Below, piece by piece: positions 28,305 to 41,731 of a DNA stretch of 53,867 nt; position 1 is the stretch's first letter, and each line of letters starts with the position of its first letter. The position numbers were made by a program, and so were the translations under genes. The notes beneath the pieces were generated by a model. That model saw only the letters and a list, made by a program, of their open reading frames with translations, searched no databases and had not been told where the DNA came from. The stretch is from an uncultured Ignavibacteria bacterium (GTDB taxonomy: Bacteria > Bacteroidota > Ignavibacteria > SZUA-365), in NCBI GenBank assembly GCA_913061095.1, contig CAJXVM010000015.1, positions 72,870 through 126,736 on the forward strand. Direction: 5' to 3'.

Positions 28305-28440
28305 GCATCCCGCTGCACTTGCATCCCGCTGCACTTGCATCCCGCTGCACTTGCATCCCGCTGCACTTGCATCCCGCTGCACTTGCATCCCGCTGTACTT
28401 GCATCCCGCTGTACTTGCATCCCGCTGCACTTGCATCCCA
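28305..28440. repeat. 16-bp tandem repeat, 8 copies plus a partial
   Basis: Unit GCATCCCGCTGCACTT occurs eight times without a gap (28305-28432), followed by GCATCCCA. Copies 6 and 7 carry TGTACTT instead of TGCACTT; all others are identical. It is non-coding, lies 13 bp after the propeller phosphatase stop and ends 26 bp before the DinB start. Near-identity of copies points to recent expansion by slippage or recombination. Confidence 0.95.
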
Positions 28441-29882: not shown

Positions 29883-30827
29883 CTAAATCCAATCGAGATA
29901 CAGCAGCAGGGAGAGGCCGAGCACAAGGAGTCCGACGATCACCAGCACGGTCGTGGCGGCGGCGGTGTCGTCGGGCACCTCCCGGAGGATCAGGTCTGTC
30001 TCGCTCTGCCGATGTCGCTGCAGCAGATCGTAGACGGTACTGCCAATACCCCGGCAGAATGCTTCATACGCACAGTGATCCCGGTACGGTGCGAAATCCT
30101 CCCGGGCGATATGCACGCTGATTTCCCCTGACGACTGAAGGACGACCCTGGTCATGTCACGGCGATTGCGCTGATCATCGCTGAACAGATGCTGTGCCCC
30201 GGGGAAGAAAAGCACCAGTGTGTCATCCTGCCACTCGGGCACCGCGATGCGGCGTCGGAAAAGAAAGGAGGAAAATCGTCGCAGCTCGTCACCTGAGTAG
30301 CGGACGGTTCGCACAGTGCAGAGCACGTCGGGATCGTCGCTTGCGGATTCATCGGTGGGAGCGGATGCTTCGGTGGGAGCGGATGCTTCATGTGCCGTGC
30401 CGATTTCTCCGGGAAAACCGTTCATGCCATTTTCAGCGTTTTGCAGGGCGGATGCGAAGAGCCAGCGGTTCCAGCTGCGCGTGCGCGTGCGCTGCAGCAA
30501 CACGGCGGGCAGACTGAATACCAGCAGCACGCCGAACGCGATCAGATGCGCGGTCCAGCTCCGGTGCGTGAAGATCGTGTCGTGGTGCATCGCCAGCTCG
30601 TAATGCCACGCCAGGAGTCCGGCCATTACTCCCACGAGCATATACAGCCGCGACCGCTGCCGCCAGCCCGTCCGGATCGCGAATCCCATGATGAATGCGG
30701 CAAATAGCCAGGTGCTGTAGTGCGTCCCGAACAGGCTGTCCTCGAGCACCTGCAGCAGAAGGTAGATTGCGGAGGTCGTGATCGTCCAGAACCAGAGCCG
30801 CGGGGTTGATGGAATGCGTTGAGACAT
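29883..30827 (-). CDS. Multi-pass membrane protein of unknown function
   Basis: 314 residues. Four N-terminal hydrophobic spans (about 12-30, 37-52, 60-76, 90-112) are followed by a soluble region (about 115-290) with a low-complexity Ala/Thr/Ser/Glu stretch (HEASAPTEASAPTDESASDD, coded by an 18-bp direct repeat near 30351-30390). A single C-terminal helix ends the protein (AATTVLVIVGLLVLGLSLLL). The soluble region has a beta/alpha pattern (WQDDTLVLFFPGAQHLFSDD, VVLQSSGEISVHIAREDF). I do not recognise a family. A possible cue is that the C-terminal tail is buried in or beneath the membrane, a tail-anchored layout. Confidence 0.75.
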   Translation of the reverse strand: MSQRIPSTPRLWFWTITTSAIYLLLQVLEDSLFGTHYSTWLFAAFIMGFAIRTGWRQRSRLYMLVGVMAGLLAWHYELAMHHDTIFTHRSWTAHLIAFGVLLVFSLPAVLLQRTRTRSWNRWLFASALQNAENGMNGFPGEIGTAHEASAPTEASAPTDESASDDPDVLCTVRTVRYSGDELRRFSSFLFRRRIAVPEWQDDTLVLFFPGAQHLFSDDQRNRRDMTRVVLQSSGEISVHIAREDFAPYRDHCAYEAFCRGIGSTVYDLLQRHRQSETDLILREVPDDTAAATTVLVIVGLLVLGLSLLLYLDWI

Positions 30828-31014
30828 GATCGTGAGTTCACTGTCAGGCTTGCATGGAATTGTATAAAGATGGCGAAATTTCCGGCGGGATCATACGCCC
30901 GGTTGCTTCGGATGGCCGGGATGATGAACTTACCGGTCGCAGGAAGCACGAAGCAGGAAGCAGGATGGAGAAGCAGCGAGGCGACGGGATCCCGTTTCAA
31001 TCACAGGAGCACAA

Positions 31015-31644
31015 ATGAACGAAGGCAATTCGCGCGGGGACATCCCCGCCGGGGGAGACACAGCAGAGTATGTACGCGAAGACCGCTCGATATCCCTGCT
31101 GCAGGCGAACTTCCAGATGATTTTCGTCGCCGTGCCCGCCGTGCTCGTGTTCGTGGTTCCGTACGCACTGCTCTGGGATGTGGCGTCGCTGTTCCGCTTT
31201 TCAGGTTCCGCCATCGGCATGCTGGTGCTCGCCATCCTCGCGGGCATCGTCGTGCACGAGGGGATTCACGGACTCACTTGGAAACTCGCCACCGGAAAAT
31301 CCTTTGGCGTCATCCGCTTCGGTTTCGACTGGAAAACCGTCACACCCTATGCGCACTGCACCGAACCGATGCGCGCCGATGCCTACCGTCTCGGCGCCGG
31401 CATGCCGCTGCTGCTGATGGGCGTGCTGCCCTCCATCGCCGGCATCGCCACCGGCAGCGCCGCGGTCATGGCATTCGGCCTCTTCTTCACCTTCGCCGCG
31501 GGCGGCGACATGCTCATCCTGTGGCTGCTCCGCGACGTGCCGGGCACCGCGCTCGTTGAAGATCATCCGAACCGCGCGGGGAGCTATGTGCTGAGGGAGC
31601 GTGAGGATCGTGAGGATCGTAAGGATCGCGAGGAGCGGAACTGA
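31015..31644 (+). CDS. DUF3267 family membrane metalloprotease-like protein
   Basis: 209 residues. The zinc-type motif VVHEGIHGLTWK (His81, Glu82, His85) sits at the end of the second of about four membrane helices, followed by TVTPYAHCTEPMRADAYR, as in DUF3267/M50-like proteins. Substrate and role are unknown. The C-terminus ends in repeated Arg/Glu/Asp words (REREDREDRKDREERN), coded by 9-bp direct repeats (GAGGATCGT, AAGGATCGC) that may be recent expansion. It precedes the thioesterase gene by 16 bp, likely one operon. Confidence 0.85.
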   Translation: MNEGNSRGDIPAGGDTAEYVREDRSISLLQANFQMIFVAVPAVLVFVVPYALLWDVASLFRFSGSAIGMLVLAILAGIVVHEGIHGLTWKLATGKSFGVIRFGFDWKTVTPYAHCTEPMRADAYRLGAGMPLLLMGVLPSIAGIATGSAAVMAFGLFFTFAAGGDMLILWLLRDVPGTALVEDHPNRAGSYVLREREDREDRKDREERN

Positions 31645-31660
31645 ACCAGCAGGATGCACC

Positions 31661-32425
31661 ATGCCAGGACATGAGTTCACACACGACTACGAAATCCATT
31701 ACTACGACTGCGACGCGCGGAAGCGTCTGAGCGTTCTGGCGATGCTGCGCTTCTTCGAGGATATCGCGCTGCGGCAGAGCGAAGCGGTGGGGGTCGGACT
31801 CGACTTCTACGAGCGCGAACAGGTGGCGTGGCTGCTGAGCAGATGGGACATCCGCATCCGCGCCCTCCCGTCATACATGTCGGATGTGCGCGTCCTTACC
31901 CAGCCGATGCGCATGCGCCGCTTTCTCGCGAACCGCCGCTATGCGCTGTATGACGGTGACGCCGCGCCGGTGATCGAGGCGGATTCACAGTGGGTATTCC
32001 TCGACACGGAACGAAGACGACCGGCACGCATTCCGGAGGAGGTGTACCGCCGCTACGGACGTATCACGGAATCGGAGGAACTGCCGGCCCCGCCTCCGCC
32101 CCGCGCACCGGAGCGCACGGACGCGGAGCGCAGCTTTTCCGTGCGCATGAGCGACATCGACACGAACGGCCATGTCAATAATATTCGCTACGTGGAGTGG
32201 GCGCTGGAGACGCTGCCCGTGGAGCTGCTGCGGGAGGGAACGCTGCGCCGGCTGCTGGTGCATTACCGCCGGGAGGTCCGCTACGGTGCCGAGGTGCACT
32301 CGGTGGCTGCGTTCGGGGAAGAAGACGGCCTGCTTGCGGCGCGGCATGAAATCCGTTCCGGCGATGCGGCGGTCTGTCAGCTCGAGAGTTTCTGGGTTCA
32401 GCAGCCGTCGTCCGTCTCACCGTAA
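31661..32425 (+). CDS. Acyl-ACP thioesterase (FatA/FatB family)
   Basis: 254 residues from the ATG at 31661 with AGGATG upstream. Two hotdog domains are visible: an N-terminal one (DYEIHYYDCDARKRLSVLAM, AWLLSRWDIRIRALP) and a C-terminal one with FSVRMSDIDTNGHVNNIRYV, which carries the Asn-x-His (NGHVNN) catalytic motif of plant and bacterial acyl-ACP thioesterases. It releases free fatty acid from acyl-ACP in the cytosol. Its 3' end overlaps the convergent TetR gene by 28 bp, so their transcripts could affect each other. Confidence 0.9.
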   Translation: MPGHEFTHDYEIHYYDCDARKRLSVLAMLRFFEDIALRQSEAVGVGLDFYEREQVAWLLSRWDIRIRALPSYMSDVRVLTQPMRMRRFLANRRYALYDGDAAPVIEADSQWVFLDTERRRPARIPEEVYRRYGRITESEELPAPPPPRAPERTDAERSFSVRMSDIDTNGHVNNIRYVEWALETLPVELLREGTLRRLLVHYRREVRYGAEVHSVAAFGEEDGLLAARHEIRSGDAAVCQLESFWVQQPSSVSP

Positions 32426-33030
32426 AACGCCTCACCGAGCACGTCGAGCAGAAACAGCATCGCGTTTTCGATGCGCTTCCAGCCGTCCTCCGTTTTGAGA
32501 GGCACGCCGTTGTAGACGTCGATTGTCTCCGCGCGCAGGGCGAGGTAATTGATGCCCGCCGAGAGAATGCTCATCAGCGCGGGCGCATCCACGTCGCCGC
32601 GTTCGATACTCTCGTCGAGCACATGCGTGATGGCCGTGGCCTGCTCCTCGCGCTGGGCGGCGAGACGTTCGGTGACCGCGTTGCGCGTGCTCAATTCCCA
32701 GCGCATGATTTCAAGCAGTTCGGGACTGCGCCGCAGATGGTGGATCTGCTCGGTGAGGATGCGGCGCGCGATGGCCATGAGCGCATCCGGACCGCCGCCG
32801 GTATCCATGTCGCCGATCACGCGGTTGAGCCGGCCGAAGTAGTCCTTCTCCTCGGCGAAGGCGGTGAGAAGTCCGTCGAGATCCCCGAAGTACCGGTAGA
32901 TGAGCACCTTGTCCACCCCGGCGCGTTTCGCCACGGCGTTGACGCCAACGCCTTCGAAGCCCTGCTCGAGGATGATCCCGTCGAGAGCGTCGATGAGTTT
33001 TTGCCTGGTGGATTCGCTGTCTCGTGTCAT
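32398..33030 (-). CDS. TetR family transcriptional regulator
   Basis: 210 residues. The HTH occupies about residues 9-56 (RQKLIDALDGIILEQGFEGV then GVNAVAKRAGVDKVLIYRYF), followed by a helical ligand domain with the Arg/Glu-rich segment LLEIMRWELSTRNAVTERLA. TetR proteins bind palindromic operators and are released by small ligands. Its likely partners are the Acg-like oxidoreductase gene upstream on the same strand and the thioesterase gene it overlaps. The 210-bp gap upstream holds a 17-bp tandem array. Confidence 0.93.
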   Translation of the reverse strand: MTRDSESTRQKLIDALDGIILEQGFEGVGVNAVAKRAGVDKVLIYRYFGDLDGLLTAFAEEKDYFGRLNRVIGDMDTGGGPDALMAIARRILTEQIHHLRRSPELLEIMRWELSTRNAVTERLAAQREEQATAITHVLDESIERGDVDAPALMSILSAGINYLALRAETIDVYNGVPLKTEDGWKRIENAMLFLLDVLGEAFYGETDDGC

Positions 33031-33084
33031 GCAGTGCCTCCATTGCTGTCGTGGATGTGAGGATGGATGATGATGATTCAGGCC

Positions 33085-33248
33085 GGGCTCATGCGGATGC
33101 CGGGCTCATGCGGATGCCGGGCTCATGCGGATGCCGGGCTCATGCGGATGCCGGGTTCATGCGGATGCCGGGTTCATGCGGATGCCGGGTTCATGCGGAT
33201 GCCGGGTTCGTGCGGATGTCGTGCTCATGTGGATGCTGGTTTCATGCC
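33085..33248. repeat. 17-bp tandem repeat, 9 copies plus a partial
   Basis: Unit GGGCTCATGCGGATGCC repeats without gaps from 33085. Copies 1-4 are identical, copies 5-7 read GGGTTCATGCGGATGCC, copies 8 and 9 are degenerate and a partial copy runs into the coding sequence at 33242-33248. The array fills most of the interval between the Acg-like gene (whose stop codon TGA lies in the last partial copy) and the TetR start. It is not CRISPR: there are no unique spacers. Confidence 0.95.
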
Positions 33249-34354
33249 GCGGTGATGAAATCCGCGAGGGGACGCCGCAGGCTGACAGGTTCGGGATATG
33301 CGTCGATGTACCCCGCGCGCAGAATGAACTGCAGATGCGGCATGCCGAGTGTATTGCGGAGATCGTCGCTCCAGGGCTGTTCCTCGAGTGGCTGACTCAT
33401 CGGATGGAGGGCCACGCCATGTTCGCGGCAGCGCAGGGCGAGCCGCTCGTAGCGGCGTCCAGCCTCGATGATGCCGGCGAGAATGTCGCTCTCAGAGCTG
33501 ACCAGCAGCCAGCCGCCGTGCTGCGCGAGCTGCCCGCGCATGATCTCCACCGCCTTGCTTCGAAAGGATGTGCTCATCACGGTCGTTCTGCTGAAGAACA
33601 TGCGCGCGAAAAGTCCTGCGATCCCCGTGATTTCCATGGTGTCGGGATTGAGTCCGTCACCCCGCTCCTCCGCCGCGCGTTTCTTCCAGTGAATCCACTC
33701 CGACAGTTCGCGCATGGCCGCGTCGTCGTCGTTCTGCTGCACGGTTGCCGCGGAGACCGCTTCTGTGATGCTGCGTCCCGCCTCGCTGTCCTTCGCGATG
33801 AAGCGTGTATTCGTGATGCCGCTGAGGAGTTTCTCGAGGGTGTCATCGCGGAGCGGCTCACCGGAGAATCCGCTGCGCACGGTGCGCCGCGCGCGCAGTG
33901 TTGCCATGTCTCCGGATGCCGCCGTGCCGGATGCTACTGCGTCGGGTGTCGCGCTGCCGGATGCGCCGGCGGTCTCTCCAGCATCCTCTACGGCGTCATC
34001 ATGCGTGCCGCCCGTCGACTGACCGTTGCGCAGGCGCACGTGCACACGGCCCTCGCTGAGGTCGCCGTGCACCTCGAACGCCGTGTGATACCCGAAATGC
34101 CGTGCGGCGCGCTCGAGGTTCTCGCAGAATGCTCCGATGGAGAGCCAGCTCTCGCGGTGATCGGGATCCACCACCGGGAGAGTGCGCGCAGGATCGATGT
34201 CGATCATCCAGTCCATCGCATCGCGCACGTGCACCCGCCAGGGCTGCGTGTTGTGTCCGCTGGGCGCGCGCGCCGCCAGTTCGAGAATGCGCGCGCCATC
34301 CCTGTCGAGCTTCACCGTGGCGGCCGTTGTCACATGTCTTCGTTCCGTTGTCAT
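33242..34354 (-). CDS. Acg family FMN-binding oxidoreductase (nitroreductase superfamily)
   Basis: 370 residues. The N-terminal motif ILELAARAPSGHNTQPWRVH and the C-terminal GWLLVSSESDILAGIIEAGR and LHPMSQPLEEQPWSDDLR match Acg/nitroreductase-like flavoproteins, which may bind and store FMN or reduce unknown substrates. In the middle (about 115-150) lies a Gly/Ala/Asp/Thr low-complexity insert (AVEDAGETAGASGSATPD). The stop codon lies within a copy of the 17-bp repeat array. It faces the 34619 gene divergently, with three 20-bp palindromes between them. Confidence 0.87.
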   Translation of the reverse strand: MTTERRHVTTAATVKLDRDGARILELAARAPSGHNTQPWRVHVRDAMDWMIDIDPARTLPVVDPDHRESWLSIGAFCENLERAARHFGYHTAFEVHGDLSEGRVHVRLRNGQSTGGTHDDAVEDAGETAGASGSATPDAVASGTAASGDMATLRARRTVRSGFSGEPLRDDTLEKLLSGITNTRFIAKDSEAGRSITEAVSAATVQQNDDDAAMRELSEWIHWKKRAAEERGDGLNPDTMEITGIAGLFARMFFSRTTVMSTSFRSKAVEIMRGQLAQHGGWLLVSSESDILAGIIEAGRRYERLALRCREHGVALHPMSQPLEEQPWSDDLRNTLGMPHLQFILRAGYIDAYPEPVSLRRPLADFITAA

Positions 34355-34390
34355 CCTGTCGTCTCCTTGAAGAATTCCCTGTAGAAATGA

Positions 34391-34477
34391 ATGTCACCAC
34401 CCGGTGACATCCGCAGGCGGTTCTGCCTCCCCCATGTCACCACCCGGTGACAAAATTATGTCACCACCTGGTGACAT
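34391..34477. promoter_or_regulatory. Three operator-like 20-bp palindromes
   Basis: ATGTCACCACCCGGTGACAT (8-bp arms, 4-bp centre) occurs at 34391-34410, with variants at 34434-34453 (last base A) and 34458-34477 (centre ACCT). Start-to-start spacings are 43 and 24 bp. All lie in the 264-bp divergent gap between the Acg-like gene (start 34354) and the gene at 34619, the first only 37 bp from the Acg start codon. No coding frame explains them, and the two-fold symmetry suits a dimeric regulator such as the TetR protein encoded at 32398-33030. Confidence 0.75.
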
Positions 34478-34548
34478 GCAAATTCCGGCCTGTTTTGGAC
34501 GATTTTTTGCCCTTCGGAGCGGATCCTCCGCGGATTCCGCACCTTTCG

Positions 34549-34580
34549 CTTGTCTTCCGCGCAGCTTGTGGCTAATTTTG
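34549..34580 (+). promoter_or_regulatory. Bacteroidota-type promoter for the gene at 34619
   Basis: CTTG (34549-34552), a 20-bp spacer, then TAATTTTG (34573-34580), a full match to TAnnTTTG. The start codon lies 38 bp downstream. The third operator-like palindrome ends 71 bp upstream of the -33 box. Confidence 0.6.
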
Positions 34581-34618
34581 CGTTCTGAACGGTCATGTGT
34601 CATTGTCATTCGAGGATC

Positions 34619-35308
34619 ATGAGGATTGTATCCCTGTTTCTGCTCCTGACGCTGTGCGTCCCGGCGATGCGGGCGCAGAATATTCATGCATCCGTGCCCG
34701 ACAGCATCGATGCGGAAAAATTCTACATGTTCTATATCCATGATGACATCGTGGACGCGCGCGATCTGACGCCGTCACATCCCGAATATGGACGCTATGA
34801 GTACGAGGAAATCGTCAACCGCCTTTCGACGGAGGGATACAGCGTCATTTCCTATCCGCGGGAGGAAGGCGCGCACCCGTATCTGTATGCGGAGGAGACG
34901 GCGGAGGGAATCCGGCGGCTGCAGCGCGCCGGGGTGCCGACCGGACACATCAGCGTTGTCGGTGCCGGACGCGGCGGCGCGATCGCAGTACTGATCCTCA
35001 AGGAGATGCAGGAGCCCGGGATCAACGTGGTGCTGCTCAATGCCTGCAGCGATGCGTTCACACGGTTCTGGATCGGCAACGACGAGCTGATTTCGGGAAC
35101 GGTCCTGTCGATTTTTCACCCCGGAGACGGGGAGAAATGCAGCTGCGCTGAATATCTGAAGCAGTGCGGCAGCGAGCGCGTCCCGCTCTGGCGGGAGATC
35201 GACCTCGGCGAGAAATCCTCGCCCGGGTTTTATTTCCGTCCGGGGGTGGACTGGGTGCTGCCGACGCTGCTCTGGGCCTCGGGGAAATATGACCTCGTGC
35301 GCCAGTAA
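34619..35308 (+). CDS. Secreted alpha/beta-hydrolase-like protein lacking the nucleophile Ser
   Basis: 229 residues from the ATG at 34619 (GAGGATC upstream), where a signal peptide begins (MRIVSLFLLLTLCVPAMRAQ). The region VPTGHISVVGAGRGGAIAVL has the beta-turn-helix of an alpha/beta-hydrolase nucleophile elbow, but the residue at the catalytic position is Gly117 (GAGRG) instead of Ser (GxSxG). Two later Cys pairs are present (CSCAEYLKQC). It may be a non-catalytic binding protein, or act by another residue. Its own promoter is at 34549-34580. Hairpin repeats begin 2 bp after its stop codon. Confidence 0.75.
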   Translation: MRIVSLFLLLTLCVPAMRAQNIHASVPDSIDAEKFYMFYIHDDIVDARDLTPSHPEYGRYEYEEIVNRLSTEGYSVISYPREEGAHPYLYAEETAEGIRRLQRAGVPTGHISVVGAGRGGAIAVLILKEMQEPGINVVLLNACSDAFTRFWIGNDELISGTVLSIFHPGDGEKCSCAEYLKQCGSERVPLWREIDLGEKSSPGFYFRPGVDWVLPTLLWASGKYDLVRQ

Positions 35309-35309
35309 A

Positions 35310-35567
35310 CCCCACCCTCACGGGTGGGGCTATCGCACCCCACTGCGCACGGAGGTCACCCACGCGCGTCATCCCCACCCTCACGGGTGGGGCTACCGCA
35401 CCCCGCTGCGGACGGAGGTCACGCGCGGGCGTCATCCCCACCCTCACGGGTGGGGCTATCGCACCCCACTGCGGACGGAGGTCACCCACGGGCGTTATCC
35501 CCACCCTCACGGGTGGGGCTACCGCACCCCGCTGCGGACGGAGGTAACCACACGCGTGAGCGTGTGG
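35310..35567. repeat. 63-bp tandem array built around hairpin repeats
   Basis: The 324 bp between 35309 and 35632 hold no gene. Four copies of a 63-bp unit start at 35310, 35373, 35436 and 35499; each begins with the perfect hairpin CCCCACCCTCACGGGTGGGG and continues CTAYCGCACCCCRCTGCG. The array ends in the other hairpin type, CCACACGCGTGAGCGTGTGG at 35548-35567. The spacing parts of all copies are also nearly identical, unlike CRISPR spacers. The remaining 65 bp to the next gene show only its start region. Confidence 0.95.
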
Positions 35568-35632
35568 CTTCAGGGGTAACAAATCGGCCGGAAGGCCGTA
35601 TACCATGGCACTTTTTACATGACGGTGCATTT

Positions 35633-36739
35633 GTGAATCAGCAGACACAGCGCGAACGAGAACCGGGCTTCAGGGAAACACTGAAATCGGATTTCCGGCA
35701 GTCGGGCTTCCGGAAAAGTGTCAGCAAGGACTACCGCGAGACGCTGGAATTTTTCCTCGACGATGAGCAGAAGGAAAAACTCCTGCGCATGAACGTGTTC
35801 AAGAAATTCTTTCTCATCCCGTTCTGGCTGTTCCGCGCGATGTACCTGCATATGACGCCGGCACGGCGGGTCATCCTGCTGATCGGCGTCATCCTGATTG
35901 TCTTCACCGGCGGCTCCAGCGGCAGCAACGACGTGACAATCAACAACGGCAACCTCATCGGCGCTCTGCTGATTCTTTTCATCCTTCTGCTGGAGCTGAA
36001 AGACAAGATCATGGCGCGCGACGAACTCGAAGCGGGCCGCGCCGTGCAATCCGCTCTCATGCCCGAGGAGTGTCCCTCCTTCCCCGGGTGGGATATCTGG
36101 ATTCATACCATCCCGGCCAATGACGTGGGCGGCGACCTTGTGGATTACATTCCCGTCGGCGAGGACCGCCTCGGACTGGCGCTGGGCGACGTGGCGGGGA
36201 AGGGACTCGGCGCGGCGCTGTTCATGGCGCGGCTGCAGGCGACGCTGCGCGCGCTGGGACCCGAACGCGCGACGGTGGCCGGACTCGGCCGGCGGCTCAA
36301 CGACATTTTCGAGCGCGACGGCGTGCCCAACCGTTTCGCCTCGCTGGTCTATCTTGAAATCATGCGCGACACCGGCGCGGTGACCTTTCTCAATGCCGGC
36401 CACATGCCGCCGCTGCGCCTGCGCGGATCAGACATCGAGGAAATGGAGCGCGGCGGTCCCGCGCTTGGTATCGTGTCCGGCGCCGAATACCGCGAGCAGT
36501 CCGTCATGCTCGAAAACGGCGACGTGCTCTGCGTCTACTCCGACGGACTGACCGAGGCGCGCAACGAGCAGGGCGAATTCTTCGGGGAGGAACGCTTCCG
36601 CCGTCTCCTCGGCCGCCTCGAGAACATGGACGCCGAACACATGGGCAAGCACATCACCGAGCGCATCCAGCGCTTCATGGGGGATGCCCGGCAGCATGAT
36701 GATCTGTCGCTGTTGGTGGTGAAGAGGAGAACCTCGTGA
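35633..36739 (+). CDS. Membrane-anchored SpoIIE-type PP2C phosphatase
   Basis: 368 residues from a GTG at 35633; no ATG is in frame near the N-terminus and the ribosome site is weak. A charged N-terminal region leads to two membrane helices (about 75-92 RVILLIGVILIVFTGG and 103-120 LIGALLILFILLLELKD). The cytosolic PP2C/SpoIIE domain spans about 128-368 (VQSALMPEECPSFPGWDI, NDVGGDLVDYIPVGEDRLG, ALGDVAGKGLGAALFMAR, VYSDGLTEARNEQG, HDDLSLLVVK). It should dephosphorylate a STAS-type anti-anti-sigma factor, as RsbU does, but no partner is in the window. It is a paralogue in output domain of the propeller phosphatase at 25019. Confidence 0.9.
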   Translation: MNQQTQREREPGFRETLKSDFRQSGFRKSVSKDYRETLEFFLDDEQKEKLLRMNVFKKFFLIPFWLFRAMYLHMTPARRVILLIGVILIVFTGGSSGSNDVTINNGNLIGALLILFILLLELKDKIMARDELEAGRAVQSALMPEECPSFPGWDIWIHTIPANDVGGDLVDYIPVGEDRLGLALGDVAGKGLGAALFMARLQATLRALGPERATVAGLGRRLNDIFERDGVPNRFASLVYLEIMRDTGAVTFLNAGHMPPLRLRGSDIEEMERGGPALGIVSGAEYREQSVMLENGDVLCVYSDGLTEARNEQGEFFGEERFRRLLGRLENMDAEHMGKHITERIQRFMGDARQHDDLSLLVVKRRTS

Positions 36740-36753
36740 TGACAACGCGCTAA

Positions 36754-36773
36754 CCCCACGCGTGAGTGTGGGG
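36754..36773. repeat. Hairpin repeat, hybrid type
   Basis: CCCCACGCGTGAGTGTGGGG, 14 bp after the SpoIIE gene. The outer arms are of the CCCC type and the core of the CGCGTGAG type, linking the two hairpin classes seen elsewhere. Confidence 0.85.
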
Positions 36774-36785
36774 CTATCACACCCC

Positions 36786-36818
36786 CTTGCCCGTTCAGCC
36801 TCTCCGTAGCTATATTTC
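36786..36818 (+). promoter_or_regulatory. Possible promoter of the subtilisin-like gene
   Basis: CTTG (36786-36789) and TATATTTC (36811-36818) are 21 bp apart, close to the Bacteroidota consensus except for the last base of the -7 box. The start codon is 50 bp downstream. Between them a 13-bp direct repeat TTTCCCATCCACC occurs twice (about 36815 and 36841). Confidence 0.4.
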
Positions 36819-36867
36819 CCATCCACCCCGTTGTCGGGATTTCCCATCCACCATCCCGTGATATCGA

Positions 36868-39800
36868 ATGCGCATCTCGCTCTCTCTTCTCGCCATCCCC
36901 GCAATTTTTCTCGTCACCGTTTTTTCCTCCCATGCCCAGTACAGCAGCGACCGCGTGCTGATGCTGCGTGAGCGCGCCGATGCGCTGCGCGCCGAGGCGC
37001 AGCAGCTGCGCAGCGAGGCCGAGGCCCGCGCACGCGCGCTGGGCATGCCGGTGCGGCAGGTGCTGCCCGACGGCACGGTCATGGAACTGCAGCGCTTCCT
37101 CGACGAGCGTCCGGTATACGTGATCACCGACAACGCCAACGCGGCCGCGACGATCTCCAGCGACAAACTGTATCCCGGCGGCAGCGTGGGACTCGCACTG
37201 ACGGGTGACGGGGCGGAGCTGGGCATATGGGACGGCGGGCGCGTGCGCACGTCGCATCAGGAGTTCGACGGACGCGTGCGGCAGATGGATAACACGAGCA
37301 GTCTCAGCGATCACGCCACGCACGTGGCCGGCACGATGGTCGCCGGCGGTGTGCGCAGCGCGGCGCGTGGCATGGCCTACGAGGCAGAACTTGTTGCCCA
37401 CGACTGGAACAGCGACCTGTCGGAAATGACCGCGCGGGCCGCGGAGGGACTGCAGGTGTCGAATCACTCCTACAGCAATATCACCGGGTGGCGCTACAAT
37501 TACCGCCGCGACGGACGCTGGGCATGGTTCGGCGATCCGGACGATAATTCTCCCGAGGACCGCGACTTCGGTCTTTACGACGGACGCGCGCAAGACTGGG
37601 ATCGCCTCGTGTACCAGGCGCCGTATTACCTGCCGGTCAAGTCGGCTGGCAACGACCGTGGCGAAGGTCCGTCGAAGCAGCCCGTGCAGCACTGGGAGTT
37701 CACATCCAGAGGCTGGCAGCTGGTCGATGACGTGCGCGACCGCGACGGAGGAGGTGAGGGCTACGACTGCATTTCGACCTACGGCAACGCGAAGAACATC
37801 CTCACCGTCGGCGCGGTGGAAGACCTCCCTGGCGGATACAGCACCAGCAGCGATGTGCGTGTGACATCCTTCAGCGGCTGGGGTCCCAGCGACGACGGAC
37901 GCATCAAGCCCGACATCGTGGCCAACGGCGCGGCACTGTACTCCACGCTGAAATCCTCCGACGCGGCGTATGCGTCGTACAGCGGCACCTCGATGTCATC
38001 GCCGAGCGCGGCGGGATCCCTCGGGCTGCTGCTCGAACATCAGGCCGATCTGCACGGCGGCGAACGCCTGCGCGCATCCACGCTGAAGGCGCTGGTGCTG
38101 CATACGGCGGACGAGGCGGGTCCCGCTCCCGGGCCCGATTACATGCACGGCTGGGGACTGATGAACACCGCCGCCGCGGCGAAGCTGATGACGCTGGACG
38201 CGCAGAACAGCAGTTCCGCCTTCATCCGGGAAGACGTGATCGATAACGGCGAGGAGCTGGAATACCAGATTTACAGTCCGGGTCGCGGTCCGATCAAAGT
38301 CACCATCTGCTGGACCGACCCGTGGACGAAGAAATCCGGCAGCGGTGTCGATCCGTCGAACTCCGTGCTCGTGAACGACCTCGACCTGCGCATCATCGAT
38401 CCGCAGAGCGGCGAGCATCTTCCCTGGACGCTGGATCCCGCCAGTCCATCAGTGGCCGCCGTGCGCGGAGACAATGTGCGCGACAATGTCGAGCAGGTGT
38501 TCATCGCCGCGCCGGAGGAGGGGAATTACATCGTGCGCATCACGCACAAGGGGACGACGCTGTACAGTGGCGCGCAGGATGTGTCGATCGTGGCCAGCGT
38601 GAGCAACGCGCCGTCGCTGGTCTCCCCGCCGAGCGGTCTCGCGGAGATTTCGCCGACCGCCACGCTGCAGTGGAATCCCGCCCGCGGCGCGCAGAGCTAC
38701 GATCTGCAGGTCGCCGCCTCGCCCGATTTCACGCAGCCGATGATCGACGCGAATGGTATCGTCAACAACTGGTACACCCCGCAGGGACTCGACCGCCTGA
38801 ACCGCTATTACTGGCGGGTGCGTGTGCGCGACGCCCAGGGCGTTAGCGACTGGTCTGACATCTGGAGCTTTGAAACCGGCGGCGCGACCGCGATGGCGGG
38901 ATACGCGCTGTACTTCGATGGCTTTGATGACCGGCTCTCGCTGGAGCACGGCAGCGCGTTCGATGTGATCGAGCAGCAGGATGCCGTCACCATCGAGGCG
39001 TGGATCAACGTGCTGAGCTGGCAGAACGGGTATTTCACCATCATCGACAAGTACAATTCCACCACCGATTTCGGCTGGACGCTGCAGATCCATCGCACGG
39101 GCGGGCTGGAGTTCATCGGATCGGAGAGCGTGAAATGCAATTTCGTGCCGGAGCTCGGCCGCTGGTATCATATCGCGGTGAGTTACCGCCGCTCGGAAGG
39201 GAAGATCCGTTTTTACGTCGACGGTTCGCGGCGCTGCGAGGCGGACTACGATGCGGACATCCGCGACACTGAAGGTGGTCCTCTGTACCTGGGCTTCAAT
39301 CCCTCCGGCGGTGACGAGTTCGGTCACGGCATGATCGACGAACTGCGCATCTGGAACTTCGCGCGCAGCGAGGCGGAGATCAACGCGGATCTGTACAGCG
39401 TGCTCAGTGGCGGACAGACAGGGCTTGCCGCGCTGATGAACCTCGATGAAGGGCGCGGGCTGACGACGGCCGCACCGCCGTCGGCGACGGAAGCGCAGCT
39501 GACTGCCGGTCCCGTCTGGATGATTTCATCCGTGCCGATGAGCGAACCGCCCGTTCCCGTCCCCGCGTATCCCGTGAACAACACCGCGAACGTGCCGGTG
39601 CAGCCCTCGCTGCGCTGGCTTCCCACGACATCCGCATCGTCATACCGGGTGCAGCTCGCCGACAATCCCTCCTTCAGCAACATGATCGTGGATGCGCGCA
39701 ATGTGACCGGCACGTCGCGCGGGGTGCCCGTGCTGCGCGCGGAGACCGAGTACTACTGGCGCATCAACGCATCGAACGCGGTGGGCACCGGGGAGTGGAC

Positions 39801-41589: not shown

Positions 41590-41731
41590 CCACACGCGTG
41601 AGCGTGTGGACGTGGGAACGTCGTGCAAGGATCACGGCATCCACACGCGTGAGCGTGTGGTTGGTGCGCTGGCCCCACCCTCACGGGTGGGGTTACCCGG
41701 TGCCGCGCTGGCCCCACCCTCACGGGTGGGG
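41590..41731. repeat. Cluster of four hairpin repeats before leuS
   Basis: CCACACGCGTGAGCGTGTGG at 41590-41609 (directly after the preceding stop codon) and at 41641-41660; CCCCACCCTCACGGGTGGGG at 41673-41692 and 41712-41731. The last copy is followed by a run of five T residues, so it should work as a terminator for the protease gene. Lone spacers are 12-31 bp and unlike each other, apart from GCGCTGG before both CCCC-type copies. Confidence 0.95.

Follow-up and report, generated by a model that had tools for sequence, protein, structure and literature searches.

The window, that is, the whole stretch of 53,867 nucleotides analysed here, carries on its minus strand a gene for an FMN-binding oxidoreductase (acg, 33242-34354; NF047509 at 210 bits, the cut-off being 199) and, beyond it on the same strand, a tetR gene (32398-33030; TetR_N PF00440, 3.9e-10) whose product is the predicted repressor binding the palindromes described below. 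On the plus strand, a divergent gene (34595-35308, with a possible start at 34619) faces away from acg and is not considered a target. The original prediction had named all three genes; the two family matches bear out Acg and TetR, while neither Pfam nor NCBIfam gave a match for the divergent gene, so that "pseudo-hydrolase" was not borne out. The space between acg and tetR is taken up by about ten tandem copies of a 17-bp unit (GCCGGGCTCATGCGGAT; window 33082-33247), and eight 16-bp tandem copies (GCATCCCGCTGCACTT) follow a two-component-type gene (window 28305-28439).

The acg-tetR module (window 32426-34480) has a thioesterase gene on one side and the divergent gene on the other. In four congeners these two genes are adjacent, with acg, tetR and the sites all absent, so the module together with its operators is most simply read as an insertion at this locus, and the divergent gene would have no ancestral link to the sites.

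Palindromes and predicted promoters at the acg locus

Three near-identical palindromes, none assigned to a strand, occupy the region upstream of acg. The first (34391-34410, ATGTCACCACCCGGTGACAT, exact) lies in the expected acg leader; the second (34434-34453) has one change, an ACAA end, and the third (34458-34477) also one, an ACCT centre in place of ACCC. Each is composed of an 8-bp arm, a 4-nt centre and an 8-bp arm, with the second copy pairing over 7, and the starts are 43 and 24 bp apart with a centre orientation common to all three. These positions, spacings and the shared orientation agree with the original prediction, as does the claim that chance does not account for them, the number of matches expected from 100 dinucleotide-preserving shuffles of the window being 0. 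No Rfam match was found in window 30000-38000. Site 1 forms a hairpin in the acg mRNA leader; this was rejected as a functional element, since the z-score of −1.8 for the leader as a whole is unconvincing.

A predicted acg promoter, TTG-N20-TAATTTTG, spans 34451-34481 on the minus strand, its TTG at 34481-34479 and its TAATTTTG at 34458-34451 facing acg. We take this pair of elements to be the Bacteroidota-type promoter, a motif that is rare in the DNA analysed, with 3 occurrences in the window and 1 in the 108 kb taken from other loci. Site 3, a predicted operator, fills the promoter spacer and site 2, likewise a predicted operator, covers the −7 box, and the same operator-over-promoter arrangement is found again in four related loci (G008, G659, L088 and L089). 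The divergent gene has a predicted promoter of its own, of the same type (34550-34580, plus strand), which is clear of the palindromes and lies 72 bp beyond site 3. Control in both directions, as originally proposed, is therefore not upheld, all the more because the congeners carry the divergent gene without acg-tetR.

The predicted operator beside TetR genes in other phyla

The predicted TetR model is all-helical (pLDDT = 87.7), with an N-terminal DNA-binding domain (PF00440) followed by a helical ligand domain, as is typical of the family. The nearest structures are FadR, RutR and other TetR proteins at about 13-22% identity, which is too distant for naming a ligand, and none of the named NCBIfam TetR models reaches its cut-off for this protein. 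Among 40 aligned relatives the recognition helix region AGVDKVLIYRYF hardly varies, partly by selection, as the search patterns include this region. Within the family of the window species, the TetR occurs only in the window genome and in G008, which belongs to another genus and whose TetR is 53% identical.

A scan of named genomes by protein motifs alone yielded 80 relatives of this TetR, which are 34-46% identical to it and belong to Desulfobacterota, Cyanobacteria, Synergistota, Ignavibacteriota, Myxococcota, gammaproteobacteria and other groups; because DNA played no part in the scan, their upstream regions are an independent test of the sites. The site TGTCACC-N4-GGTGACA (up to 3 of 14 positions mismatched) is present within 200 bp upstream in 72 of the 80, the other eight having none in that upstream window, and its density is 7.3 per kb upstream of the relatives versus 0.074 per kb elsewhere in the loci, or about 100-fold higher. 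The 99 distinct sites give a consensus of about [AT][AT]GTCAC[CT]-N4-[GA]GTGAC[AT][AT] with a variable centre. Where sites are paired they are 21-31 bp apart, most commonly 27, although many of the 27-bp pairs are cyanobacterial and hence not independent. In 31 of the 80 loci, tetR is followed by an acg gene in the same orientation; the culturable Desulfosarcina widdelii (L108) is one carrier of the module. The comparison of orthologous upstream regions, proposed along with the original prediction, is exemplified by the acg-tetR pair of G008, where two palindromes with differing centres lie just upstream of acg at the same 24-bp spacing. In the cyanobacterial loci the upstream divergent gene encodes a 4HBT thioesterase, which faces TetR across two operators (L117, L118, L113, L106, L141 and L164); this arrangement suggests another target there and perhaps an acyl-type ligand.

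The palindrome thus lies beside its own tetR, is kept with the orthologues and overlaps the predicted promoter of its target, and on this association, read from DNA alone, the sites are best regarded as operators of the TetR whose gene adjoins acg, in line with the original prediction. NemR is a local TetR-family repressor with a neighbouring oxidoreductase and self-repression. The present locus resembles the NemR type in its tetR gene adjoining a flavin oxidoreductase gene and in palindromic operators with a short centre over the promoter, but differs in the operator sequence, in the target family (Acg) and in the 22 surplus operators found in the genome. The acg gene of Mycobacterium tuberculosis belongs to the DosR regulon, from which one could argue that acg is under a DosR-like regulator here as well and that the palindrome is a DosR box. 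We give this very little credence: the box TTSGGGACTWWAGTCCCSAA was not found within 3 mismatches in the window, and the palindrome follows TetR across phyla, also in loci without a detected acg.

Literature searches on the operator or the acg-TetR pair found nothing relevant, and the TetR group appears undescribed as far as these searches show. One TetR paper containing both half-sites was discarded as a precedent, the half-sites occurring in primers only. A viral origin of the palindrome was likewise dismissed: the 18-mer occurs once in each of four viral contigs, in unrelated surroundings. Dense runs of GTCACC / GGTGAC half-sites are also seen on two viral contigs (L224:9544 and L225:5141), apparently unrelated to TetR.

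Copies dispersed in one genome

The genome (4.61 Mb in 42 unordered contigs) was searched for the palindrome with up to 3 mismatches, as the original prediction had proposed, giving 25 sites in ten clusters of 1-4 copies, nine of them besides acg, while a reversed control pattern gave 0. By composition, 4.6 Mb should contain about 0.0008 copies of ATGTCACC-N4-GGTGACAT, and a sharp gap separates the 25 sites from the background, a relaxed pattern having 178 hits versus 154 in its control. Scattered copies had been named in advance as speaking against an operator; they exist, but the operator reading stands because the evidence across phyla is independent of them.

Most clusters directly follow stop codons and some copies lie inside genes. 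L009 overlaps the stop codon of a metallo-beta-lactamase-like gene; L010 falls within the final codons of a multihaem cytochrome gene whose b561 partner follows directly; L011 is 17 bp after a fumarase gene; L012 follows a thioredoxin-like gene, which is convergent with an asparaginase-like gene; L013 is 6 bp after a zinc-type alcohol dehydrogenase gene; L014 is 12 bp after an aldehyde dehydrogenase gene; L015 is inside a polytopic membrane protein gene without a Pfam match; L016 is between convergent genes; and L017 is 15 bp after a lectin-like gene. At L015 the gene has an insert (net +10 residues) missing from the orthologues in three relatives, and the intergenic region of the congener G004 that corresponds to L016 is short and lacks the array. 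Synteny joints with congeners coincide with several clusters (L011, L012, L013 and window 34391-34477).

These clusters could all be ordinary operators of a TetR regulon that has grown in this species, each controlling a neighbouring gene. The intact arms would fit, as would several redox neighbours (alcohol and aldehyde dehydrogenases, thioredoxin-like protein, cytochromes) and the fact that L010, L011, L013 and L017 are also upstream of a gene. However, two clusters are located within genes or in their final codons, most of the clusters come after a stop codon, and the promoter motif TTG-N19-21-TAnnTTTG is absent within 150 bp at all nine non-acg clusters. A shared centre, moreover, points to copying and not to repeated independent gain, so that we consider a grown regulon unlikely; judged from these positions, the dispersed copies are not simply a promoter regulon.

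Among 391 genomes of the class, the window genome has 25 sites, six others have 1 each and the rest none; the 48 genomes with relatives of the window TetR have 0-4 sites each. All 25 copies have the asymmetric centre ACC[C/T], with uniform orientation within each cluster, whereas the centre is free in other species. This fixed centre points to a family by descent from one copy, as opposed to repeated independent gain. An operator does not need it, which suggests that some other process acts on the copies. The flanking bases carry almost no information, from which the copied unit appears to be the bare 20-mer. Only 1 of 350 core arm positions is changed among the 25 copies versus 13 of 150 end and centre positions, and the differences fall at positions where the operator is loosely defined across phyla; by this pattern, the copies are young or their arms are kept. 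At L016 two spacers are 15/23 identical and the palindromes between them are identical, diverged spacers next to identical palindromes favouring arms that are kept or homogenised. A few spacer pairs between arrays look related, such as the first spacers of L014 and L017 (17/22 identical), but of 992 comparisons only the best is noteworthy. L016:725-870 and L017:6206-6310 look related in copy order and first spacer, yet all their palindrome centres are mutually inverted.

The congener G004, in which no TetR is detectable, carries a single perfect copy at its counterpart of L012. Similarity between the two loci starts exactly at the palindrome, and the adjacent 3.5 kb are 88% identical versus 65-81% in other aligned stretches of both genomes. 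From these alignments, a transfer between lineages is possible, and this copy may be older than the TetR in the window genome. Next to the palindrome, a non-coding, AT-rich stretch of about 100 bp is conserved in two congeners (L012:6213-6310 and L066:2169-2270), possibly a small RNA or a regulatory region.

Repeats of this kind bring to mind REP elements, and the 20-mer could be a hairpin repeat of the REP type that a REP-associated (Y1) transposase has dispersed, its position beside acg being incidental. Like REP/BIME elements with RAYT, the palindromes are of about 20 bp, hairpin-capable, dispersed, mostly outside genes (right after stop codons), species-specific and of 8-4-8 geometry with a shared centre, and this geometry matches hairpins around the genome's own Y1 transposases (those at L028 and L033 are surrounded by 20-bp hairpins of this form). 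Unlike such elements, the palindromes are in direct orientation within clusters, number only 25 and have arms equal to the conserved operator. REPs have been described with a GTAG or CGTC tag (PMC3733652), but neither this nor any other conserved adjacent tag was found at the palindrome ends. The genome has three Y1 transposase genes, of which two are flanked by other hairpins and one by none, and thus none by the palindrome. The occurrence of the same arms before TetR in many phyla would also be left unexplained, and we therefore judge a REP-type repeat improbable, although in a mixed version a REP-like mechanism may have spread the operator. The window itself has REP-like arrays at 35310-35567 and 41590-41731, made up of 20-bp hairpins with 8-4-8 geometry (CCCCACCCTCACGGGTGGGG, CCACACGCGTGAGCGTGTGG) of the same kinds as around the Y1 gene at L028.

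SlmA and RefZ are TetR-family proteins, and dispersed sites can serve chromosome organisation. A role of this kind for the window TetR would be consistent with its fold, with SlmA among the structure matches and RefZ among weak sequence matches below the cut-off, and with several short palindromic sites dispersed around the chromosome, some inside genes. It seems highly improbable to us, since other genomes have sites of this TetR only beside its own gene.

A proposed repressor switch with surplus sites

We consider it quite probable that the palindrome is the operator of a TetR repressing acg and tetR and that it was separately copied to nine other places in this species. The G004 copy without a detectable TetR, the 8 of 80 relatives without an upstream site and the fixed asymmetric centre, for which an operator has no need, are counted against it. 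A role of the TetR as repressor of acg is well supported by the promoter overlap and the conserved sites; it is probably also the repressor of itself.

In the preferred reading, repressor dimers on sites 2 and 3 would cover the −33 and −7 elements and block acg transcription, steric occlusion of the promoter being the simplest form of repression. Site 1, in the acg leader, probably contributes either an additional dimer or a roadblock. Read-through from the acg promoter would extend repression to tetR, giving autoregulation, and we infer that an inducer releases the dimers.

A 20-bp version of the operator with the fixed ACC[C/T] centre would then have been copied to nine other places, giving the 25 sites in ten clusters. 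These copies should still bind the repressor, as their arms keep the positions conserved across phyla. With most of them at gene ends without a recognisable promoter, it is more likely that they titrate the repressor or do nothing visible than that they form an ordinary promoter regulon. By analogy, titration would be the most economical effect: two papers describe chromosomal titration sites for DnaA (PMC12371093) and synthetic decoy sites (PMC7826281), which share with the present copies many sites for one DNA-binding protein off promoters, although titration by the TetR copies is a guess. A lack of any effect is possible. That an operator has turned into a dispersed repeat, with 25 bare 20-bp sites binding TetR off promoters and so setting the free repressor available to the acg switch, is offered as a tentative proposal.

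The switch and its regulator were correctly anticipated by the original prediction and control in two directions was not; the 25-copy family, which is not visible from the window, was missed, and it is a more interesting part than the acg switch. A widespread TetR group, found by Acg oxidoreductases in many bacteria and by thioesterases in cyanobacteria, gains a testable predicted operator. The window genome is also a clear example of one in which a transcription factor binding site has multiplied, close relatives having a single copy or none, and it allows one to ask directly by what means such sites spread in bacteria and how an excess of them affects a simple repressor switch.
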